From Clostridia bacterium (GTDB taxonomy: Bacteria > Bacillota > Clostridia > Christensenellales > Borkfalkiaceae): a DNA stretch of 64,000 nt. The position numbers and the translations under genes were made by a program. A model generated the notes under the pieces. That model ran no database searches. It was not told where the DNA came from and saw only the letters and a program-made list of their open reading frames with translations. This document shows, in pieces, positions 33,185-41,223 of the stretch (within the stretch, counting starts at the first letter, position 1; each line of letters begins with the position of its first letter). Location: the NCBI GenBank assembly GCA_017467275.1, contig JAFTSN010000003.1:1-64000 (forward strand), written 5' to 3'.

Positions 33185-33259
33185 GCAGGTGTCGCCTAGC
33201 GGTATGGCGTCAGCTTCCCAAGCTGATTCCGGCGAGTTCGACTCTCGTCACCTGCTCCA
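33185..33259 (+). tRNA. tRNA-Gly (anticodon CCC)
   Basis: Full cloverleaf: acceptor GCAGGTG/CACCTGC perfectly paired, D-arm GCC/GGC, anticodon stem TCAGC/GCTGA with loop TTCCCAA (anticodon CCC at 33217-33219), T-arm GCGAG/CTCGT with loop TTCGACT, discriminator T and an encoded CCA. The last 14 bases are repeated 6.6 kb downstream and mark it as an integration site. Confidence 0.97.
33246..33259 (+). repeat. Left copy of the 14-bp island direct repeat (tRNA-Gly 3' end)
   Basis: CGTCACCTGCTCCA, the end of tRNA-Gly, recurs exactly at 39828-39841. The flanking bases differ on both sides, so the repeat is 14 bp. Confidence 0.85.
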
Positions 33260-34789: not shown

Positions 34790-34808
34790 ATTAATGGAGG
34801 AGATTATT

Positions 34809-36077
34809 ATGTTAATACAATTTAGATTTAAAAATTATAAGTCATTTAAAAATGAAGCAGTATTAGACTTATCGTCTACAAAAATAACAGAGAATGCTGA
34901 TAATGTTGTGCAAATTGGGCATGAAAAAATTTTAAAGTTGGCAGCGATTTATGGCGCTAATGCGAGCGGTAAATCTGGAATCTTTGATGCTTTTGAATAT
35001 ATGTCTTATTACGTTATACAATCATTTAAGTTTGATGATGAAATTTCTGAACGTCAAAAAGAAAATCGAATTACTCCTACGCCATTTAGATTTTCTAAAG
35101 AAACTAAAGATGCCCCCTCCGAATTTGAGGTTTATTTTTCTAGAGTTGATAAAAAAGGAAAAATAAAATTTTACAATTATGGTTTTAGCGTTGATGCAAA
35201 TCAAGTCCATGAAGAATGGCTTAATATTAAATCTGCATCTGGAAGAGAATACAAGAATGTTTTTTATAGAGATTTAAAAGAAATAGAATTTCCTGGATTA
35301 ACCTCTAAACAGGTTGAACTTATTTCAGAAGGATTAAGCGACGAAACATTAGTGCTTTCGCTTGGTGCGAAATTGAACGTAGCTATATTTAAAGATGTTC
35401 GTAGGTGGTTTTTAGATAATGAAACCTTAAACTACGCATCATTATCTCAAAATGTATATTTATATAGAAATATGCCTGATGGTTTTGATTCGGATGTTCA
35501 AGTTCAAGAAAATGTCGTAAGATATTTTTCTTCTTTTGATGATGGGATTGTAGGTTTTGAAGTTGAAGAAAACCAACAAACAGATGACAAAGAGGAAACA
35601 ACATATACTATTGACACACTGCATAAAATGATGGATTCAGCGGAACGAGGGACAATACCTTTAGCGGATGAATCGGCTGGAACATTAAAAATGTTTTCCT
35701 TATATCCATTTTTAGTATCTGTTATTGAAAAGGGTAATGTTTTATTTATTGACGAATTAAACGCTAGACTGCATCCATTATTGGTAAGAAATATTATTTT
35801 GCTGTTTGCCAATAAAGACACTAACCCTAACAACGCCCAACTGATTTTTACGACTCACGATACATGGCAGTTGTCTACAGATGTGTTACGAAGAGATGAG
35901 GTTTGGTTTACGGAAAAAGATAAAACAGGTTGTTCTTCTTTGTATGCTTTATCTGATTTTAAAGATTCTAATGGCGTAAAAATTAGAAAAGATGAAAATT
36001 ATGAAAAAAATTACCTTCTCGGTAATTATGGTGCAATTCCTCGATTGACAACATTAAAGTTGAAAGGGGATAAATAA
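34809..36077 (+). CDS. RloA/AAA_15-type ATPase, probable phage-defence protein
   Basis: The 422-residue ATPase belongs to the OLD/ABC-like group (COG1106). Walker A is GANASGKS at residues 49-56; a Walker B VLFIDELNARLHP lies near residue 310 and is followed by TTHDTWQLS, the H-loop. The insert between them is helical. Such proteins (RloA, AbiLi-like, the ATPase of PARIS) are encoded next to a small nuclease-like partner, and an RloB-like gene follows here with one base between stop and start. The ATPase is thought to sense infection and release or activate the partner. The ATG at 34809 is chosen because GGAGGAG lies 6 bases upstream; an ATG 15 bases earlier overlaps the SD. Confidence 0.85.
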   Translation: MLIQFRFKNYKSFKNEAVLDLSSTKITENADNVVQIGHEKILKLAAIYGANASGKSGIFDAFEYMSYYVIQSFKFDDEISERQKENRITPTPFRFSKETKDAPSEFEVYFSRVDKKGKIKFYNYGFSVDANQVHEEWLNIKSASGREYKNVFYRDLKEIEFPGLTSKQVELISEGLSDETLVLSLGAKLNVAIFKDVRRWFLDNETLNYASLSQNVYLYRNMPDGFDSDVQVQENVVRYFSSFDDGIVGFEVEENQQTDDKEETTYTIDTLHKMMDSAERGTIPLADESAGTLKMFSLYPFLVSVIEKGNVLFIDELNARLHPLLVRNIILLFANKDTNPNNAQLIFTTHDTWQLSTDVLRRDEVWFTEKDKTGCSSLYALSDFKDSNGVKIRKDENYEKNYLLGNYGAIPRLTTLKLKGDK

Positions 36078-36078
36078 T

Positions 36079-36711
36079 ATGAGCAAAGAACAACGTATAG
36101 GAAAAAGAAGACCGAGGTCTTTTGAGTGTAGGACTCCCAAATTGGGATATTATATAATTTATACGGATACCAAAGAGACAGAAGAAAATTATATAGATGG
36201 TTTCAGGAAATCTTTGCCTGTTGAATTTCAAGAAAAAATAGAAATTCAAATTTTAAAAGATAAAACAGCCAATTTAGTCAAGCGTTGTTGCGAATATATG
36301 CGTAACAATCCACAGTATCGTTCTGCGTGGCTCATCTTTGATAAAGATCAAGTATCTCACTTCGATGAAATTATCGAAGAAGCGAACAGTAAAAACATAC
36401 AAGTTGCATGGTCAAATCCCTGTATTGAAATTTGGTTTTCTGGGTATTTAGGAAAAATCAGTTGTATTGACTCGACAACTTGTTGTCGCAATTTTTCTGT
36501 ATTATACAAGCAAAAGACAGGAAAGGAATACGATAAAGGCGAGAAAGAAATTTATCAAATTTTAAATAAAACAGGCAACGAGCAAAAAGCTATTAAATAT
36601 TTCAAACAAAAATATGAAAATGCGAATAAAGATAAACTTTCGCCAGGTGAACAGCTGCGTGGAAGTTATATGTTTGCTTTAATTGAAGAAATTAGAAATA
36701 TGCTTAAATAG
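36079..36711 (+). CDS. RloB-family protein (Toprim-like effector)
   Basis: The 210-residue product has the RloB layout: an early TKETEENYIDGF segment with a candidate catalytic Glu (about residues 31-42), a conserved FDKDQ (87-91) of D-x-D form, and SNPCIEIWF (112-120), which is highly characteristic of the family. The Glu plus DxD arrangement is like a Toprim metal centre, so nuclease activity is plausible but unproven. The gene is directly coupled to the RloA-like ATPase. RloA/RloB pairs occur in restriction-modification and defence islands and give abortive infection in related systems. The C-terminal third is basic and helical. Confidence 0.85.
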   Translation: MSKEQRIGKRRPRSFECRTPKLGYYIIYTDTKETEENYIDGFRKSLPVEFQEKIEIQILKDKTANLVKRCCEYMRNNPQYRSAWLIFDKDQVSHFDEIIEEANSKNIQVAWSNPCIEIWFSGYLGKISCIDSTTCCRNFSVLYKQKTGKEYDKGEKEIYQILNKTGNEQKAIKYFKQKYENANKDKLSPGEQLRGSYMFALIEEIRNMLK

Positions 36712-36998: not shown

Positions 36999-37472
36999 AT
37001 GGTAAAAAACGGGCTTTCGGTTGCAACAAAACCTATTCGTGCCAATTTAGCGGATGAGCCTCCTTTAACGGAAGATCAAGATATAGAAAATACCGTATTA
37101 ATCAGCAAACTTAAAACTGGTGGATTTAATGTTGTTTTTCGTAACCATGCAACAAAGAAAAAGTTGGATGCTTTAAATATAGTAATAAATTATTCTAAAA
37201 AAGAAAATGGAAAAGCCATTTTAAATGATATTTATCAGAATTTAATTACAATTATTAATGTTAAATATATATCAAAATTAGCCGATGGGGAAAGTTTACA
37301 ATCAAGTGTAATAGAATTTGTGGAAGACTTTTCGGAGATTGCGGAAAAATACAAACAATATATAGAAATAGACGAGGCTTTTTTAGAAGGACTTTTATAT
37401 ATAGCAACATCTCGATGTGCAATAAATTGGAAAATGGAGAATGATGATGAAAACATCAATGATAGTAAATAG
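36999..37472 (+). CDS. ABC-3C C-terminal-domain-like protein (effector C-terminus)
   Basis: The 157-residue helical protein contains a segment typical of the C-terminal domain of ABC-3C effectors: a NDIYQNLITIINVKYISKL core and an acidic tail. The frame is open upstream of the ATG back through IDIGSVNI, which continues the NNIQAG motif only if one base is added near 36975. No good SD precedes this ATG. An alternative start is the ATG at 36925, overlapping the previous ORF, which would need that one-base correction. It overlaps the next gene by 26-32 bp. The family assignment is by architecture and moderate. Confidence 0.5.
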   Translation: MVKNGLSVATKPIRANLADEPPLTEDQDIENTVLISKLKTGGFNVVFRNHATKKKLDALNIVINYSKKENGKAILNDIYQNLITIINVKYISKLADGESLQSSVIEFVEDFSEIAEKYKQYIEIDEAFLEGLLYIATSRCAINWKMENDDENINDSK

Positions 37473-37776
37473 AATAGATAATTGGTTTGATTCTATTGAT
37501 GTAGAACTAGACGAATGTTATGTGGCTATACAAATTCTAGAACGTTTATATACAAGAAAGAAAATCGGACTTGATTATGACCGTTTTAAGTTGGCGTCTT
37601 TAATTTATCATCGCTCTAGTGCCGAATCAATTGCGGTTCTTGATAAAGCTATCGTATTGCTTATTTCTAGAAATTTAATAAGATTAGAAACAAAGAAGTT
37701 AGGGATGCGTAAATTGCTAATTACCGGGTTTGGGGAATCGACATATAGAATTTATAAAGAAGAGGTGGAAAAATGA
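37447..37776 (+). CDS. ABC-3C middle-component-like protein
   Basis: A 109-residue, all-helical protein with a probable winged-helix fold: a VAIQILERLYTRKKIGLDY segment, then ASLIYHRSSAESIAVLDKAI, then a short beta end. The size and position between the effector-like gene and the ABC ATPase fit the 'middle component' of ABC-three-component systems. Three tandem ATGs occur (37441, 37444, 37447); the third is best spaced from GGAG at 37436. It overlaps the preceding gene by 26 bp and the ATPase gene by 4 bp, so the three genes are translationally coupled. Confidence 0.6.
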   Translation: MKTSMIVNRIDNWFDSIDVELDECYVAIQILERLYTRKKIGLDYDRFKLASLIYHRSSAESIAVLDKAIVLLISRNLIRLETKKLGMRKLLITGFGESTYRIYKEEVEK

Positions 37777-39635
37777 GAATTTTCAATATGACTGTGAGCG
37801 GTGATTTAACTCTGAATATGAAATTTGAAGAGAAAAATGTATTGCTTGGAGAAAATAATACAGGAAAATCAACTTTTGTAAAATTAATTTTATATGTATT
37901 GGGCGTTGAGATTAATAACTTTATAGAAGAAATTACTGTTCACAATAAGTGTAATTCCGTATCTCTAGCTATTCAAACAAAAAGTAATAATAAGTATTTG
38001 ATTACAAGAAAATTGCCTTATTCTGATATGGTAAACGTTTTTCCTGTTAACTCAAATAACGAAGTGTTAGTTCAAGAGGTTTTAGTATATAATTTAGAGG
38101 AATATTCAGACTTTTTATTAGCGGAAGAGCTTTATCCACAAGAAACAATTTCGTATGGGCAAGGTAAAAAAGCATCTCTTCGTTATTATTTCTTGTTGAG
38201 AGGAGCTGTCATAGATCAAACAACCCCGCATGCACGTATTCTTTCAAATTTAAGTGGTGAAAAGAATGATTATATTGCAAGCCAACCATTAATTAATACG
38301 GCGATAATCGAAAATATTTTGAGCCGAAATACTACAGAGATTCAGCGATTAAGGCTCTCGTTAAAAGAAAAAGAAAAAGAACGCAATCAAATTAATGAAA
38401 AGATTGCATTCTTTTCTGAAATGATTTCGGAAAAACTTGAAAAACATAAAAACATGCCTAATACTGTAGATAAAATAAATTTAGAGATACAAAAGTTAAA
38501 TCAAGAAGAAAAAAATTTATCGTCTGAAAGATACGATGTGCTTATTCAATTAGAAAAAGCAGCTGATAAACAAATTGAGACGGAAATTTTCCACTTAAAA
38601 ACTGCTTTAAATAAGGAGAAAGAACTTAAAAATGTTATTTTGTTAAATATATCTGATGCAAAAGCAGCACAAAAAAAATTGAAAGAAGAACTAGAAATTA
38701 TTAAAAAGAGATTAGCAGCTAAAAAAATTATTTCAAACATACCAGTTACAATTTGTCCTATATGCTTTTCGGAAGTAGGTCAAGATGCTTTTTGTGAACA
38801 CTGTAAGGAAATAGATAATGAAAAAAATATAGAAGCTCTTGCTGTATATAAAAAACTGATCGAAGACTCTTTAAAAGAATCTATCGTTTTGTTAAGGCAA
38901 TATCAAGAAAATTTATGCCAGTGTGAAACAAAAATCATAAATTATAACAAAGAGTTGAATGATTTAGAAGAAAAATACGTTATTCGTTTGAACAATCTTC
39001 GTACACCGTTGCAAGGGATTATAGATGAATTAAAAGAAAGAATTAAATTTTTATCTTCCAGACAAATTATATTGCATGATTTATTGTCGTATATGAATGA
39101 AAATGAAAAAAATAAAAATCATCGAAAAAGGATAAACGAAGAACTTCAGGAATTACGTGGTGAATTGGATAAAGCCAACCAAAAGAGTATGGAGGATATG
39201 CGAATCGCTGAAACATGGATTGAATATTATAATGATATTTATAATGAAATCTTTGGCACTATTGATAATAAGATTGAACTTGATGATAGTTATATGCCTT
39301 TAATTAATGGAACGGAAATACAAAAAATATCATCCGAAAGCGTAAAACTTGTAGCACAATTGGCTTACATATTTACGCTTGCTACGCTCAACAATAAACT
39401 TGATAAAAGTTCTATTAATCATTTAGGATTTATTATATTTGATTCGCCTAAAGATAAAGATTTGGATTTGGATAAATATAAAAGATTTTTAAGCCTTTTA
39501 AATCAAGTAAATAATGTTCAGATTTTTTTGACAGGCAGTATATTGGATAAAGAGTCTTATCTTGGAGCTTTCCCCACGGCATATTATTTGCCTGAATTAT
39601 CGGAACGCAATAGGCTTTTAAAAGAAACTAGATGA
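37773..39635 (+). CDS. ABC-3C-type SMC/Rad50-like ATPase (DUF3732-like)
   Basis: The 620-residue ATPase has Walker A GENNTGKST at 26-34, long coiled coil from about residue 190 to 500, and a hinge-like CPIC...CEHC motif (about 328-345) that recalls the Rad50 zinc hook. The C-terminal lobe has an ISSESVKLVAQLAYIF signature-like segment and Walker B GFIIFDSPKDKD near residue 555. At the place where most ABC ATPases have the catalytic Glu there is Ser (FDSP), a departure also expected in DUF3732 proteins, so hydrolysis may be slow or need a partner residue. In ABC-3C systems this protein is the sensor and the small upstream genes are the effector and middle component. Confidence 0.8.
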   Translation: MRIFNMTVSGDLTLNMKFEEKNVLLGENNTGKSTFVKLILYVLGVEINNFIEEITVHNKCNSVSLAIQTKSNNKYLITRKLPYSDMVNVFPVNSNNEVLVQEVLVYNLEEYSDFLLAEELYPQETISYGQGKKASLRYYFLLRGAVIDQTTPHARILSNLSGEKNDYIASQPLINTAIIENILSRNTTEIQRLRLSLKEKEKERNQINEKIAFFSEMISEKLEKHKNMPNTVDKINLEIQKLNQEEKNLSSERYDVLIQLEKAADKQIETEIFHLKTALNKEKELKNVILLNISDAKAAQKKLKEELEIIKKRLAAKKIISNIPVTICPICFSEVGQDAFCEHCKEIDNEKNIEALAVYKKLIEDSLKESIVLLRQYQENLCQCETKIINYNKELNDLEEKYVIRLNNLRTPLQGIIDELKERIKFLSSRQIILHDLLSYMNENEKNKNHRKRINEELQELRGELDKANQKSMEDMRIAETWIEYYNDIYNEIFGTIDNKIELDDSYMPLINGTEIQKISSESVKLVAQLAYIFTLATLNNKLDKSSINHLGFIIFDSPKDKDLDLDKYKRFLSLLNQVNNVQIFLTGSILDKESYLGAFPTAYYLPELSERNRLLKETR

Positions 39636-39763: not shown

Positions 39764-39827
39764 GATGAGGTGCGCTCGTCGGGACTCTTGGCGCAAAAGA
39801 CGCGCCAAAGAAAATGCAAGCATTTTC

Positions 39828-39841
39828 CGTCACCTGCTCCA
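39828..39841 (+). repeat. Right copy of the 14-bp island direct repeat
   Basis: Identical to the last 14 bases of tRNA-Gly at 33246-33259, including the encoded CCA, but without the rest of a tRNA. An inverted repeat GAAAATG-CAA-CATTTTC (with G/C inner pair) abuts it on the island side. Confidence 0.85.
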
Positions 39842-39848
39842 AGTCAGT

Positions 39849-39899
39849 ATAATCCGAACTATTTGTTTACAACAAGCGAATGGTTCGGATTATCTTTTT
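39849..39899 (+). terminator. Terminator beyond the right att copy (probably the original tRNA-Gly terminator)
   Basis: A perfect 11-bp stem ATAATCCGAAC (39849-39859) with GTTCGGATTAT (39883-39893), then CTTTTT. It lies 7 bases after the displaced tRNA 3' end, as expected for the terminator of the tRNA before island insertion. Confidence 0.8.
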
Positions 39900-39943
39900 A
39901 TATTGAAAAAGATGGGAATTGATTTGCTGTGGCGTAAAAAGTA

Positions 39944-39972
39944 TTGACTTAATTATCTATTTATGGTATATT
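39944..39972 (+). promoter_or_regulatory. Promoter of the structured leader RNA
   Basis: TTGACT (39944-39949) and TATATT (39967-39972), 17-base spacer. The predicted transcription start (about 39979) is exactly the first base of the long helix described in the next entry. Confidence 0.75.
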
Positions 39973-39978
39973 ATTTAC

Positions 39979-40127
39979 GCGACATATCTTAATATTTTAT
40001 CCTAAATCAAGGGAATACTATCGTTAAAAGTGTATTCTCTCCCCTTTGATTTAGGAAAAAGATGTGTCGCAACATTGAGAGGTACATTTTTGGGTGTGTC
40101 TCTCTATGGGACACACTTTTTGTTTTT
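39979..40127 (+). ncRNA. Highly structured leader or small RNA ending in an intrinsic terminator
   Basis: An outer helix pairs GCGACATATCTT (39979-39990) with AAGATGTGTCGC (40059-40070), 12 bp with one G-U. An inner helix pairs CCTAAATCAA (40001-40010) with TTGATTTAGG (40046-40055), extended by GGG/CCC past one bulge. An apical helix pairs GAATAC (40013-40018) with GTATTC (40032-40037). After a linker, GTGTGTC (40094-40100) and GACACAC (40110-40116) form a terminator followed by TTTTTGTTTTT. The P1 3' strand TGTGTC (40063-40068) could instead pair with GACACA (40110-40115), which would break the terminator. The coding start of the zinc-ribbon gene is 15 bases beyond. I do not recognise it as a known riboswitch or 6S RNA. 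It may be an attenuator or a stand-alone sRNA. Confidence 0.7.
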
Positions 40128-40141
40128 CGGAGGTTTTATTG

Positions 40142-40660
40142 ATGGCTTTAATTAAATGTCCCGATTGCGGGAAAGAAATTTCAAACAAATCAAGGGCTTG
40201 TATTTATTGTGGGTGTCCTATTGAAAGCGCGCCTATGCAAACGGATAATGTATCATATAAAATTAAAATAATTTCTATTTCAGACGAAAAGGTGTTTGTG
40301 CAAACTATGTTTAATTTAAGTTTGTGTAGCACATTAGGGGCAAAGCATATTTGTTCGCATTTGCCCTATGAATTTCCGCAGCCTTTACCTTATAGGGATT
40401 GTCAATTTTTAATGGATACATTAAATAAAATCGGGTGTACGGTTGAAACGAACAAAAATACGGAAACCAACACTCCCGCTTTAAAAATTATTGAAGAGCC
40501 GATACAAGCAAACGATAATGTCGTAAAATGCCCTAAATGCGGTTCAACTCAAATAGCAACAGTAAATAGAGGTTGGTCAATGATTTGGGGATTAATAGGT
40601 AGTGGAAATGCGTGTAATGTATGCCAAAACTGCGGTCATAAATGGAATCCGAAAAAATAA
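40142..40660 (+). CDS. Double zinc-ribbon protein
   Basis: The 172-residue product has an N-terminal zinc ribbon (KCPDCGKEISNKSRACIYCG, four Cys in CxxC pairs) and a C-terminal one (KCPKCGSTQ and, after WSMIWGLIGSGNACN, CQNCGHKWNPKK). The middle part (about residues 35-125) contains a segment similar to ribosomal-protein-L7/L12-like or ligand-binding beta-alpha folds, but I cannot name it. The ATG is 6 bases after CGGAGG, which directly follows the leader terminator. Zinc-ribbon proteins of this kind are common and mostly uncharacterised. The gene is AT-rich like the island on its left, yet it lies outside the att repeats, so it could belong to an older or second element. Confidence 0.75.
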   Translation: MALIKCPDCGKEISNKSRACIYCGCPIESAPMQTDNVSYKIKIISISDEKVFVQTMFNLSLCSTLGAKHICSHLPYEFPQPLPYRDCQFLMDTLNKIGCTVETNKNTETNTPALKIIEEPIQANDNVVKCPKCGSTQIATVNRGWSMIWGLIGSGNACNVCQNCGHKWNPKK

Positions 40661-40683: not shown

Positions 40684-41223
40684 ATGAAGAAATTGTTGGT
40701 AGTTTTATTGAACGTAATATGTTCAATTGTTTTAGCCTCTTGTAATAATGAGGTATGCAAACACGATTTTCAAGGAAAATGTGAAGAATACGCTATTTGT
40801 GTAAAGTGCGGGGCGCAAAGGGGGCATAAAAAGGACCATTCTTACGAAGGTGATTGTGAGGATTTTAGGAAATGCACAGATTGTGGGGAAATTGCGACCG
40901 AAAAAATAGAACACAATTACAAAGGGAATATTAAAATTGGTGCGTTGGCTTGTGAGAATTGTAAGAAAGCCATTACCAAAGAAGATATATCCCAAAAAAG
41001 CATTGAGCAATTAACAGATGAAGAAAGGGCATATATTTATTGGTGGTTAAATCATATTCTTACATTAAGAAAAGACGGAAAATATCTTTATACGACTGAC
41101 GTAGCATTTAACATTGTTTCTAAAGACTTTAATCTTTCCGTGGAATACTTAAAAGAAGATTTTTGGGGAGTAAACTCTATGTATAATCATAATTGTTATA
41201 GTAAGTATTACTACGAAAAATAG
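40684..41223 (+). CDS. Lipoprotein with repeated Cys-pair units
   Basis: The 179-residue product has a lipoprotein signal (lipobox VLASC, Cys 20) and then three tandem units of about 30 residues with C-H-D/E...CxxCG spacing: VCKHDFQGKC...CVKCGAQ, then DHSYEGDC...CTDCGEI, then HNYKGNI...CENCKK. The C-terminal half is soluble and helical (YIYWWLNHIL). The start is the ATG 6 bases after TTGGAGGG. It is 23 bp downstream of the double zinc-ribbon gene and probably cotranscribed, so the leader RNA would control both. Possible roles are metal binding or redox at the cell surface; none is proven. Confidence 0.7.
   Translation: MKKLLVVLLNVICSIVLASCNNEVCKHDFQGKCEEYAICVKCGAQRGHKKDHSYEGDCEDFRKCTDCGEIATEKIEHNYKGNIKIGALACENCKKAITKEDISQKSIEQLTDEERAYIYWWLNHILTLRKDGKYLYTTDVAFNIVSKDFNLSVEYLKEDFWGVNSMYNHNCYSKYYYEK

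Follow-up and report, generated by a model that had tools for sequence, protein, structure and literature searches.

The window, a stretch of 64,000 nucleotides, carries a structured leader directly ahead of a gene for a 172-residue zinc-ribbon protein and a second, CxxC-rich gene. The elements of this copy are as follows, in window coordinates.

39944..39972, + strand: sigma-70 promoter with TTGACT (39944-39949), a 17-nt spacer, TATATT (39967-39972) and TG upstream of the -10 box (sequence reading, promoter scan)
39979..39990, + strand: P1 5' strand, its first base the predicted +1, pairing over 12 bp with 40059-40070 (fold)
39991..39999, + strand: J1/2 internal loop with conserved AAUA (column counts)
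40000..40012, + strand: P2 5' strand (fold, covariation)
40013..40018, + strand: P3 5' strand (fold, covariation)
40026..40041, + strand: segment A, consisting of the 3' side of the apical loop, the P3 3' strand and most of the 5-nt bulge, capable of pairing with B
40032..40037, + strand: P3 3' strand (fold, covariation)
40038..40042, + strand: 5-nt bulge UCUCC separating P3 and P2 (consensus structure); a putative toehold for B, judging from the A:B pairing
40043..40056, + strand: P2 3' strand (fold, covariation)
40059..40070, + strand: P1 3' strand (fold, covariation)
40071..40076, + strand: conserved spacer AACA(UU) (column counts)
40077..40091, + strand: segment B, the linker GAGAGGUACAUUUUU, partner of A or of C (pairing tests)
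40093..40104, + strand: segment C, the terminator 5' arm and part of its loop, antiterminator partner of B
40092..40121, + strand: intrinsic terminator, stem 40092-40118 and U-run to 40121 (terminator scan)
40129..40133, + strand: Shine-Dalgarno sequence GGAGG (sequence reading)
40142..40660, + strand: zinc-ribbon protein gene, 172 residues, ATG at 40142
40684..41223, + strand: second gene, encoding a signal peptide with a cysteine at the lipobox position (by eye) followed by a CxxC-rich region

The promoter with its 17-bp spacing, the 12-bp closing helix, the nested and apical helices, the terminator and the Shine-Dalgarno sequence, all named in the original prediction, are present in the window copy, and the structured leader at 39979-40121 is confirmed as real. 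The terminator is bounded here by a stem at 40092-40118 and a U-run to 40121, where 40094-40127 had been given before. The region 39979-40127 folds with -52.1 kcal/mol, compared with -27.3 ± 3.6 kcal/mol in 200 dinucleotide shuffles (z -6.99), none of which folds as well as the native sequence. The leader holds no short open reading frame with a Shine-Dalgarno sequence. The zinc-ribbon frame itself stays open in the 5' direction to a GTG within the terminator (a 188-residue ORF; 40094-40141), but the ATG at 40142 with its Shine-Dalgarno sequence is the better start. A Pfam scan of the product of the second gene gave no match.

The window leader adjoins defence-type genes. An AAA ATPase and RloB-like gene pair at 34794-36711 scores as AbiLi/AbiLii, and the stretch 36999-39635 holds an ABC-3C CTD9-like gene (below the Pfam cutoff), a middle gene of 111 residues and an LmuB-like ATPase, a trio that is possibly an ABC-three-component defence system. 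Just 5' of the promoter, at 39849-39893, lies a 20-bp inverted repeat, ATAATCCGAAC...GTTCGGATTAT, with a T-run after it; the element resembles a terminator or a recombination site.

Distribution and conserved features of the leader family

A DNA search (blastn) of 151 genomes found 18 places with E below 1e-8, including both copies in the window's own genome, the second of which lies at C15:100533-100695. These homologues have P1, P2, P3, the linker and the terminator in common and differ in the genes behind them. Two covariance models were used, R1 from 17 sequences and R2 from 102 diverse members. In the multi-genome scans, where stricter filters and the scoring of 8-13 candidates per genome make all presence and copy counts lower bounds (the phylum control included), R1 at E 0.001 detected the leader in at least 166 of the 398 genomes scanned in its own family; for samples of the order and the class the counts were 55 of 297 and 52 of 245. 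The window's own genome is counted in each set. At E 1e-4, R2 detected it in 92 of 391 genomes drawn from the class; in a sample of 299 genomes from the phylum, which included members of the same class, it matched the window's own genome only, the 298 others serving as a negative control. Full-depth copy counts, limited to eight genomes, gave 26 copies in one genome (G900), 17, 13, 11, 9, 8 and 6 in six others, and two good copies and one weak copy in the window's own genome. After removal by hand of antisense matches, which arise from the near-palindromic fold, 179 matches were reduced to 175 distinct leaders, of which 174 were parsed, some divergent parses being doubtful; the remaining one (L027) failed the P1 parse.

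The exact linker pattern occurs in 45 stretches of genome contigs, 42 of which are titled Clostridia, Clostridiales or Oscillospiraceae, the others being titled `Bacillota', `uncultured bacterium' and Profundicola (L121). All of the 20 stretches scanned with R1 match except L121, which also fails R2. Many of the 45 bear animal-gut isolate names, and the description of the RNA family as a gut family rests on such record titles. Tandem promoter-plus-leader units occur at nine loci, and some are clearly recent duplications. No phage or plasmid record was matched by blastn. Among viral contigs a narrow pattern found nothing and three looser patterns found 14 loci, five of which match R2; these five IMG/VR contigs carry the promoter-plus-leader unit. 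In one phage contig (L233, 10501-11107) the leader and a lipoprotein gene are flanked by an endolysin-like gene on one side and small DNA-binding genes on the other, so placed that the unit looks like a lysogenic cargo (moron) gene. One 3-kb locus with a leader also carries a Gut-1 RNA (RF01706) and a tRNA (L080, 2421-2490).

A search against Rfam 15 at the gathering threshold, as called for with the original prediction, returned no family over the window leader or over the leaders at 20 loci; across the whole window it returned one tRNA, at 33185-33256, and nothing else. Lax scans of window positions 39800-40250 and of 15 loci gave only sub-threshold matches, such as Phe_leader over the L094 leader at 32.9 bits against a threshold of 55, and neither the gathering nor the lax scans of the window and its relatives matched a T-box. 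A literature search recognized no description of this RNA in the accessible parts of the sources, whose supplementary candidate lists, for example the thousands of candidates of PMC8040213, could include one.

Counted without gaps from the first base of P1, a -35 box with at least three of the six TTGACA letters and a -12 box with at least four of the six TATAAT letters are found in 156 of the 174 relatives, and in 132 under a stricter cutoff of at least four of six at both boxes. A column profile of the upstream region, from which 15 relatives with other P1 letters are dropped (159 of 174 remaining), shows TTGA at -35 to -32, TG at -15/-14 and TATAAT at -12 to -7, with only weak conservation at -31 and -30. 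Since a sigma-70 promoter stands in a fixed register ahead of P1, the RNA is predicted to begin on P1, and a start at its first base, proposed earlier for the window copy, appears to be a property of the whole family.

Covariation in homologous leaders bears out the proposed helices. In the 102-member alignment, which is fitted to the P1/P2/P3/terminator structure, all 34 pairs are doubly changed (P1 accounting for 12 of 12) and 94% of cells are paired; in an unfitted alignment of 17 sequences 21 of the 34 pairs are doubly changed. Conserved islands comprise ACACA/UGUGU in P1, AAUA after the P1 5' strand, the A-rich apical loop and AACA after P1. The P1 letters are conserved beyond what pairing requires, at 83-101 of 102 per column, and the U-run that ends segment B is present at 98-99 of 102 in columns 286, 289 and 290. 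The leader is thus a conserved, structured and covarying domain with conserved unpaired bases, as in riboswitches. The terminator stem is followed by at least five T in the next eight bases in 173 of 174 relatives, a count that is partly by construction because the parser seeks a T-run after the stem. Short leader ORFs with a Shine-Dalgarno sequence occur in 18 of 174 leaders, compared with 33 after shuffling and 13 in the reverse complement; none is conserved, and a leader-peptide attenuator is therefore unlikely.

Genes adjoining the leaders

In 119 of 168 leaders the 260 nt that follow the terminator contain an ATG that has a Shine-Dalgarno sequence and opens an ORF of 45 codons or more; the other 49 have none. 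The start codon falls 10-39 nt past the terminator in 95 of the 168 and 20-29 nt past it in 75. In two sets of 154 control stretches such an ORF was found 13 and 14 times, with 0 and 1 starts at 10-39 nt and none at 20-29 nt. By a crude open-frame rule the upstream frames are diverse, 94 being on the same strand and 74 on the opposite strand, and no upstream gene is conserved among the 168 leaders. At two loci (L077 and L079), whose genes resemble by eye the YpsA/SLOG protein of L215, a TTG start seemingly lies in the terminator U-run and a GGAG within the terminator 3' arm, and there the hairpin may block translation too.

By a loose rule an ORF follows 167 of the 174 leaders; nine are shorter than 50 residues and were left out of the 115 groups into which the first genes fall. 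Pfam assigns 62 families to these groups, led by BspA-type leucine-rich repeats (10), LRR_8 (6) and Listeria-Bacteroides repeats (5), with the copper amine oxidase N1 domain, SHOCT and zinc ribbons in three each and SLH in two. By a simple hydropathy and lipobox rule, 51% of the 126 first genes of at least 80 residues look exported and 28% look like lipoproteins; among 467 background ORFs taken at these loci, which include unverified frames, the shares are 14% and 3%. Counted by groups, 48 of 94 are exported and 27 of 94 are lipoproteins. The excess of lipoproteins is due to loci at the family and order levels (26 of 74 groups); class-level loci contribute hardly any (1 of 20), and seven of their 20 groups are exported. 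The downstream genes are unrelated and share no common pathway, with an excess of exported proteins.

The same diversity is seen within the genome with 26 copies. Among the 24 copies examined, 12 have a signal-peptide protein (by eye) behind them; six of these proteins were scanned and gave LRR_5 in three, PKD in one and no match in two. Behind another four is a small AbrB/MazE-like protein that carries a CxxC ribbon, where the AbrB label was given by eye and Pfam returns weak MraZ/MazE matches; the remaining eight show no clear gene, two of them being at contig ends. Elsewhere, eight leaders precede one group of small cysteine-rich proteins of the pattern MIID.TGIEL.PGN.GKDC...CCCDECNY (for example L097, 1671-1868), of which the one member scanned has no Pfam match.

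Control by metal or redox state, guessed at earlier from the CxxC proteins of the window, is unsupported, since the downstream genes are unrelated across the family and the window zinc-ribbon gene has only two weak partial matches among 60 other relatives. A defence regulon was also considered. PADLOC run on the 115 first genes gave 40 families, of which the 25 shown match one or two members each, and taken together the regulated genes do not resemble a defence regulon.

Alternative partners of the linker

Linker B is complementary both to segment A, formed by the apical loop, the P3 3' strand and the bulge, and to segment C in the terminator 5' arm; D denotes the terminator 3' arm. Because P3 and A:B both use the P3 3' strand, the four helices P3, A:B, B:C and C:D are mutually exclusive in sequence. 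The A:B pairing has the geometry of a pseudoknot across P1, with a spacer of 6 nt.

Conservation of these pairings was assessed with 37 linker-cluster representatives with dissimilar linkers, each linker being paired with its own partner and with swapped partners. The own A:B pairing is better than the swapped mean in all 37 representatives (-16.6 versus -11.5 kcal/mol) and the own B:C pairing in 33 (-13.4 versus -8.2 kcal/mol). With the U-run removed the own partner still leads the swapped mean in 35 of 37 (A:B) and 33 of 37 (B:C), whereas when the P2 5' strand and the terminator 3' arm serve as control partners it leads in 14 and 19 of 37. The own partner is ahead of every single swapped partner in only eight of 37 (A:B) and 14 of 37 (B:C). 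The same comparison bears on the exclusion first proposed, in which the P1 strands pair with the terminator arms: the complementarity exists in the window copy (-10.0 and -11.0 kcal/mol), but there is no preference for the own partner, which surpasses the swapped mean in 17 and 15 of the 37.

The alignment A3 was fitted neither to A:B nor to B:C and was built from 100 of 109 representative loci, omitting L035, L047, L152, L183, L185, L186, L188, L190 and L191. For A:B, 13 of 15 pairs are doubly changed, compared with 8.5 in shuffles, with 56 double-changed cells compared with 25, and the central pairs form in 64-69% of cells. For B:C there are 127 double-changed cells compared with 46, and the covariation is 0.386 compared with 0.255 when shuffled and at most 0.108 when slid; the number of B:C pairs with double changes is not above that in shuffles (9 versus 8.4, with 228 of 500 shuffles as high). 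Relatedness by descent and the predominance of MAG-type contigs inflate significance as judged by shuffles. Taken together, the comparisons argue that B has two conserved alternative partners, the P3/bulge/loop segment A and the terminator 5' arm C.

In predicted nascent RNAs that end before D, B:C contributes at least six expected pairs in 171 of the 174 leaders; with a shuffled linker this holds for 37 of 87 (every second leader being taken). With D added, C:D is ahead of B:C in 103 of 174. In the window copy with D made, the equilibrium fold favours the terminator, with 9.2 expected pairs versus 1.6 for B:C, so that read-through of this copy would have to be kinetic or triggered. The leader has two marks of an attenuator, an intrinsic terminator on the same strand between promoter and start codon and a conserved antiterminator that excludes it. 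With covarying homologues as well, these features support the transcription-attenuating leader with a mutually exclusive terminator that was originally predicted.

Proposed mechanism, rival readings and known systems

A portable unit of promoter and leader is evident from the sequences, with an RNA predicted to start at P1, a P1-P2-P3 domain and a linker B complementary to A and to C. This unit very probably represents a widespread, unnamed cis-acting RNA of gut Clostridia that is built like a riboswitch and controls the gene behind it by transcription attenuation. In the proposed mechanism P3 would block A:B, A:B would block B:C and B:C would block the terminator C:D. If the P3 domain were held closed, B would be free, B:C could form as C emerges from the polymerase and the gene would be transcribed. 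If instead B invaded A through the 5-nt bulge by P3, forming the pseudoknot, C would be left for the terminator and the gene would be off. The outcome would be set by a signal that stabilizes one of these two states. The likeliest sensing site would be the conserved ACACA/UGUGU, AAUA and AACA in and around P1; P1 and P2 being of similar length, bending at J1/2 could bring AACA and B up to the bulge.

A small diffusible signal is the most likely trigger, given the large number of regulated genes, their lack of relationship and their bias towards exported proteins. On a tentative reading, the leaders may constitute a new class of riboswitch, abundant among uncultured gut Clostridia and carried by their phages too. 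It would respond to a diffusible second messenger or to a signal from the envelope and would use the four-helix exclusion chain, with its bulge toehold, to switch many surface, lipoprotein and accessory genes that are unrelated to one another. Somewhat less probable is a protein-dependent attenuator, in which an RNA-binding protein on P1/AAUA/AACA or on the apical loop would choose between A:B and B:C. The conservation of P1 letters beyond pairing is as expected of a protein site, and the many unrelated genes behind the 26 copies of one genome fit a global regulator; however, by the crude open-frame rule the upstream frames are diverse (94 versus 74 by strand) and no regulator gene accompanies the unit, and copies in phage-like contigs would need a protein of the host. 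A sensor without a ligand, either an RNA thermometer or a kinetic sensor of polymerase speed responding to nucleotide supply through the U-run in B, appears improbable: a thermometer or timer has no need of the conserved AAUA, AACA and P1 sequence, although the U-run that ends B is conserved and terminator and antiterminator are nearly balanced across the family.

The main alternative put forward originally, a stand-alone sRNA that ends at the terminator while the gene behind it uses a promoter of its own, would account for the promoter, the strong terminator and a discrete RNA of about 140 nt. It is weakened by the downstream gene, whose start codon is phased after the terminator (starts with a Shine-Dalgarno sequence clustering at 20-29 nt in 75 of 168 leaders and at none of the control stretches), by the coding starts that at L077 and L079 apparently lie within the terminator tail (by eye) and by the conserved antiterminator, and is now quite improbable. 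It is highly improbable that the leader is a mobile repeat, MITE-like or a shuffled promoter cassette, with its structure as a by-product. Tandem duplication of units together with their promoters, the unrelated genes behind them and the inverted repeats formed by the P1 strands would suit such an element, but covariation ties the linker and the terminator, both beyond the inverted repeat, to each other and to the part within it, and the phasing of the downstream start codon also speaks against it.

A cis-acting RNA of this kind points to an unrecognized regulatory layer in mostly uncultured Clostridia, with adhesin-like leucine-rich-repeat proteins, lipoproteins and AbrB/MazE-like regulators among the genes behind the leaders. 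If a ligand were found, many genes of unknown function would be tied to one common signal, and the leader would illustrate how a natural switch can work by strand displacement from a toehold. Promoter and leader, being a compact unit, would also serve as a ready reporter for these organisms.

Several known systems offer comparisons. T-box and leader-peptide attenuators likewise make a choice between terminator and antiterminator in a 5' leader; the present leaders differ from them in having neither a T-box match nor a conserved short ORF. Fluoride, ZTP and preQ1 riboswitches use pseudoknot or strand-displacement terminators. As in those classes, a pseudoknot or stem of the leader domain here would compete with an antiterminator for control of the terminator, but the present leaders have no Rfam match, their P1-P2-P3 domain contains a 5-nt bulge, and their 15-nt linker is used twice. 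The c-di-GMP-I (GEMM) riboswitches, according to the accessible part of PMC7266159, also lie ahead of many different genes, a breadth that pointed to a signalling molecule; the leaders described here have no Rfam match to that class. The nearest printed candidate is the SLH motif, which the accessible part of PMC6429828 describes as a riboswitch candidate with 80 examples in Clostridia and also in Synergistaceae and Negativicutes, about 60% of them before genes for S-layer homology proteins. Both are candidate Clostridia leaders before cell-surface genes. Unlike the SLH motif as described there, the present family has SLH in two of 115 downstream groups and no match in 298 other genomes of the phylum, and it is by this described range and these gene partners, rather than by sequence, that the two are set apart.
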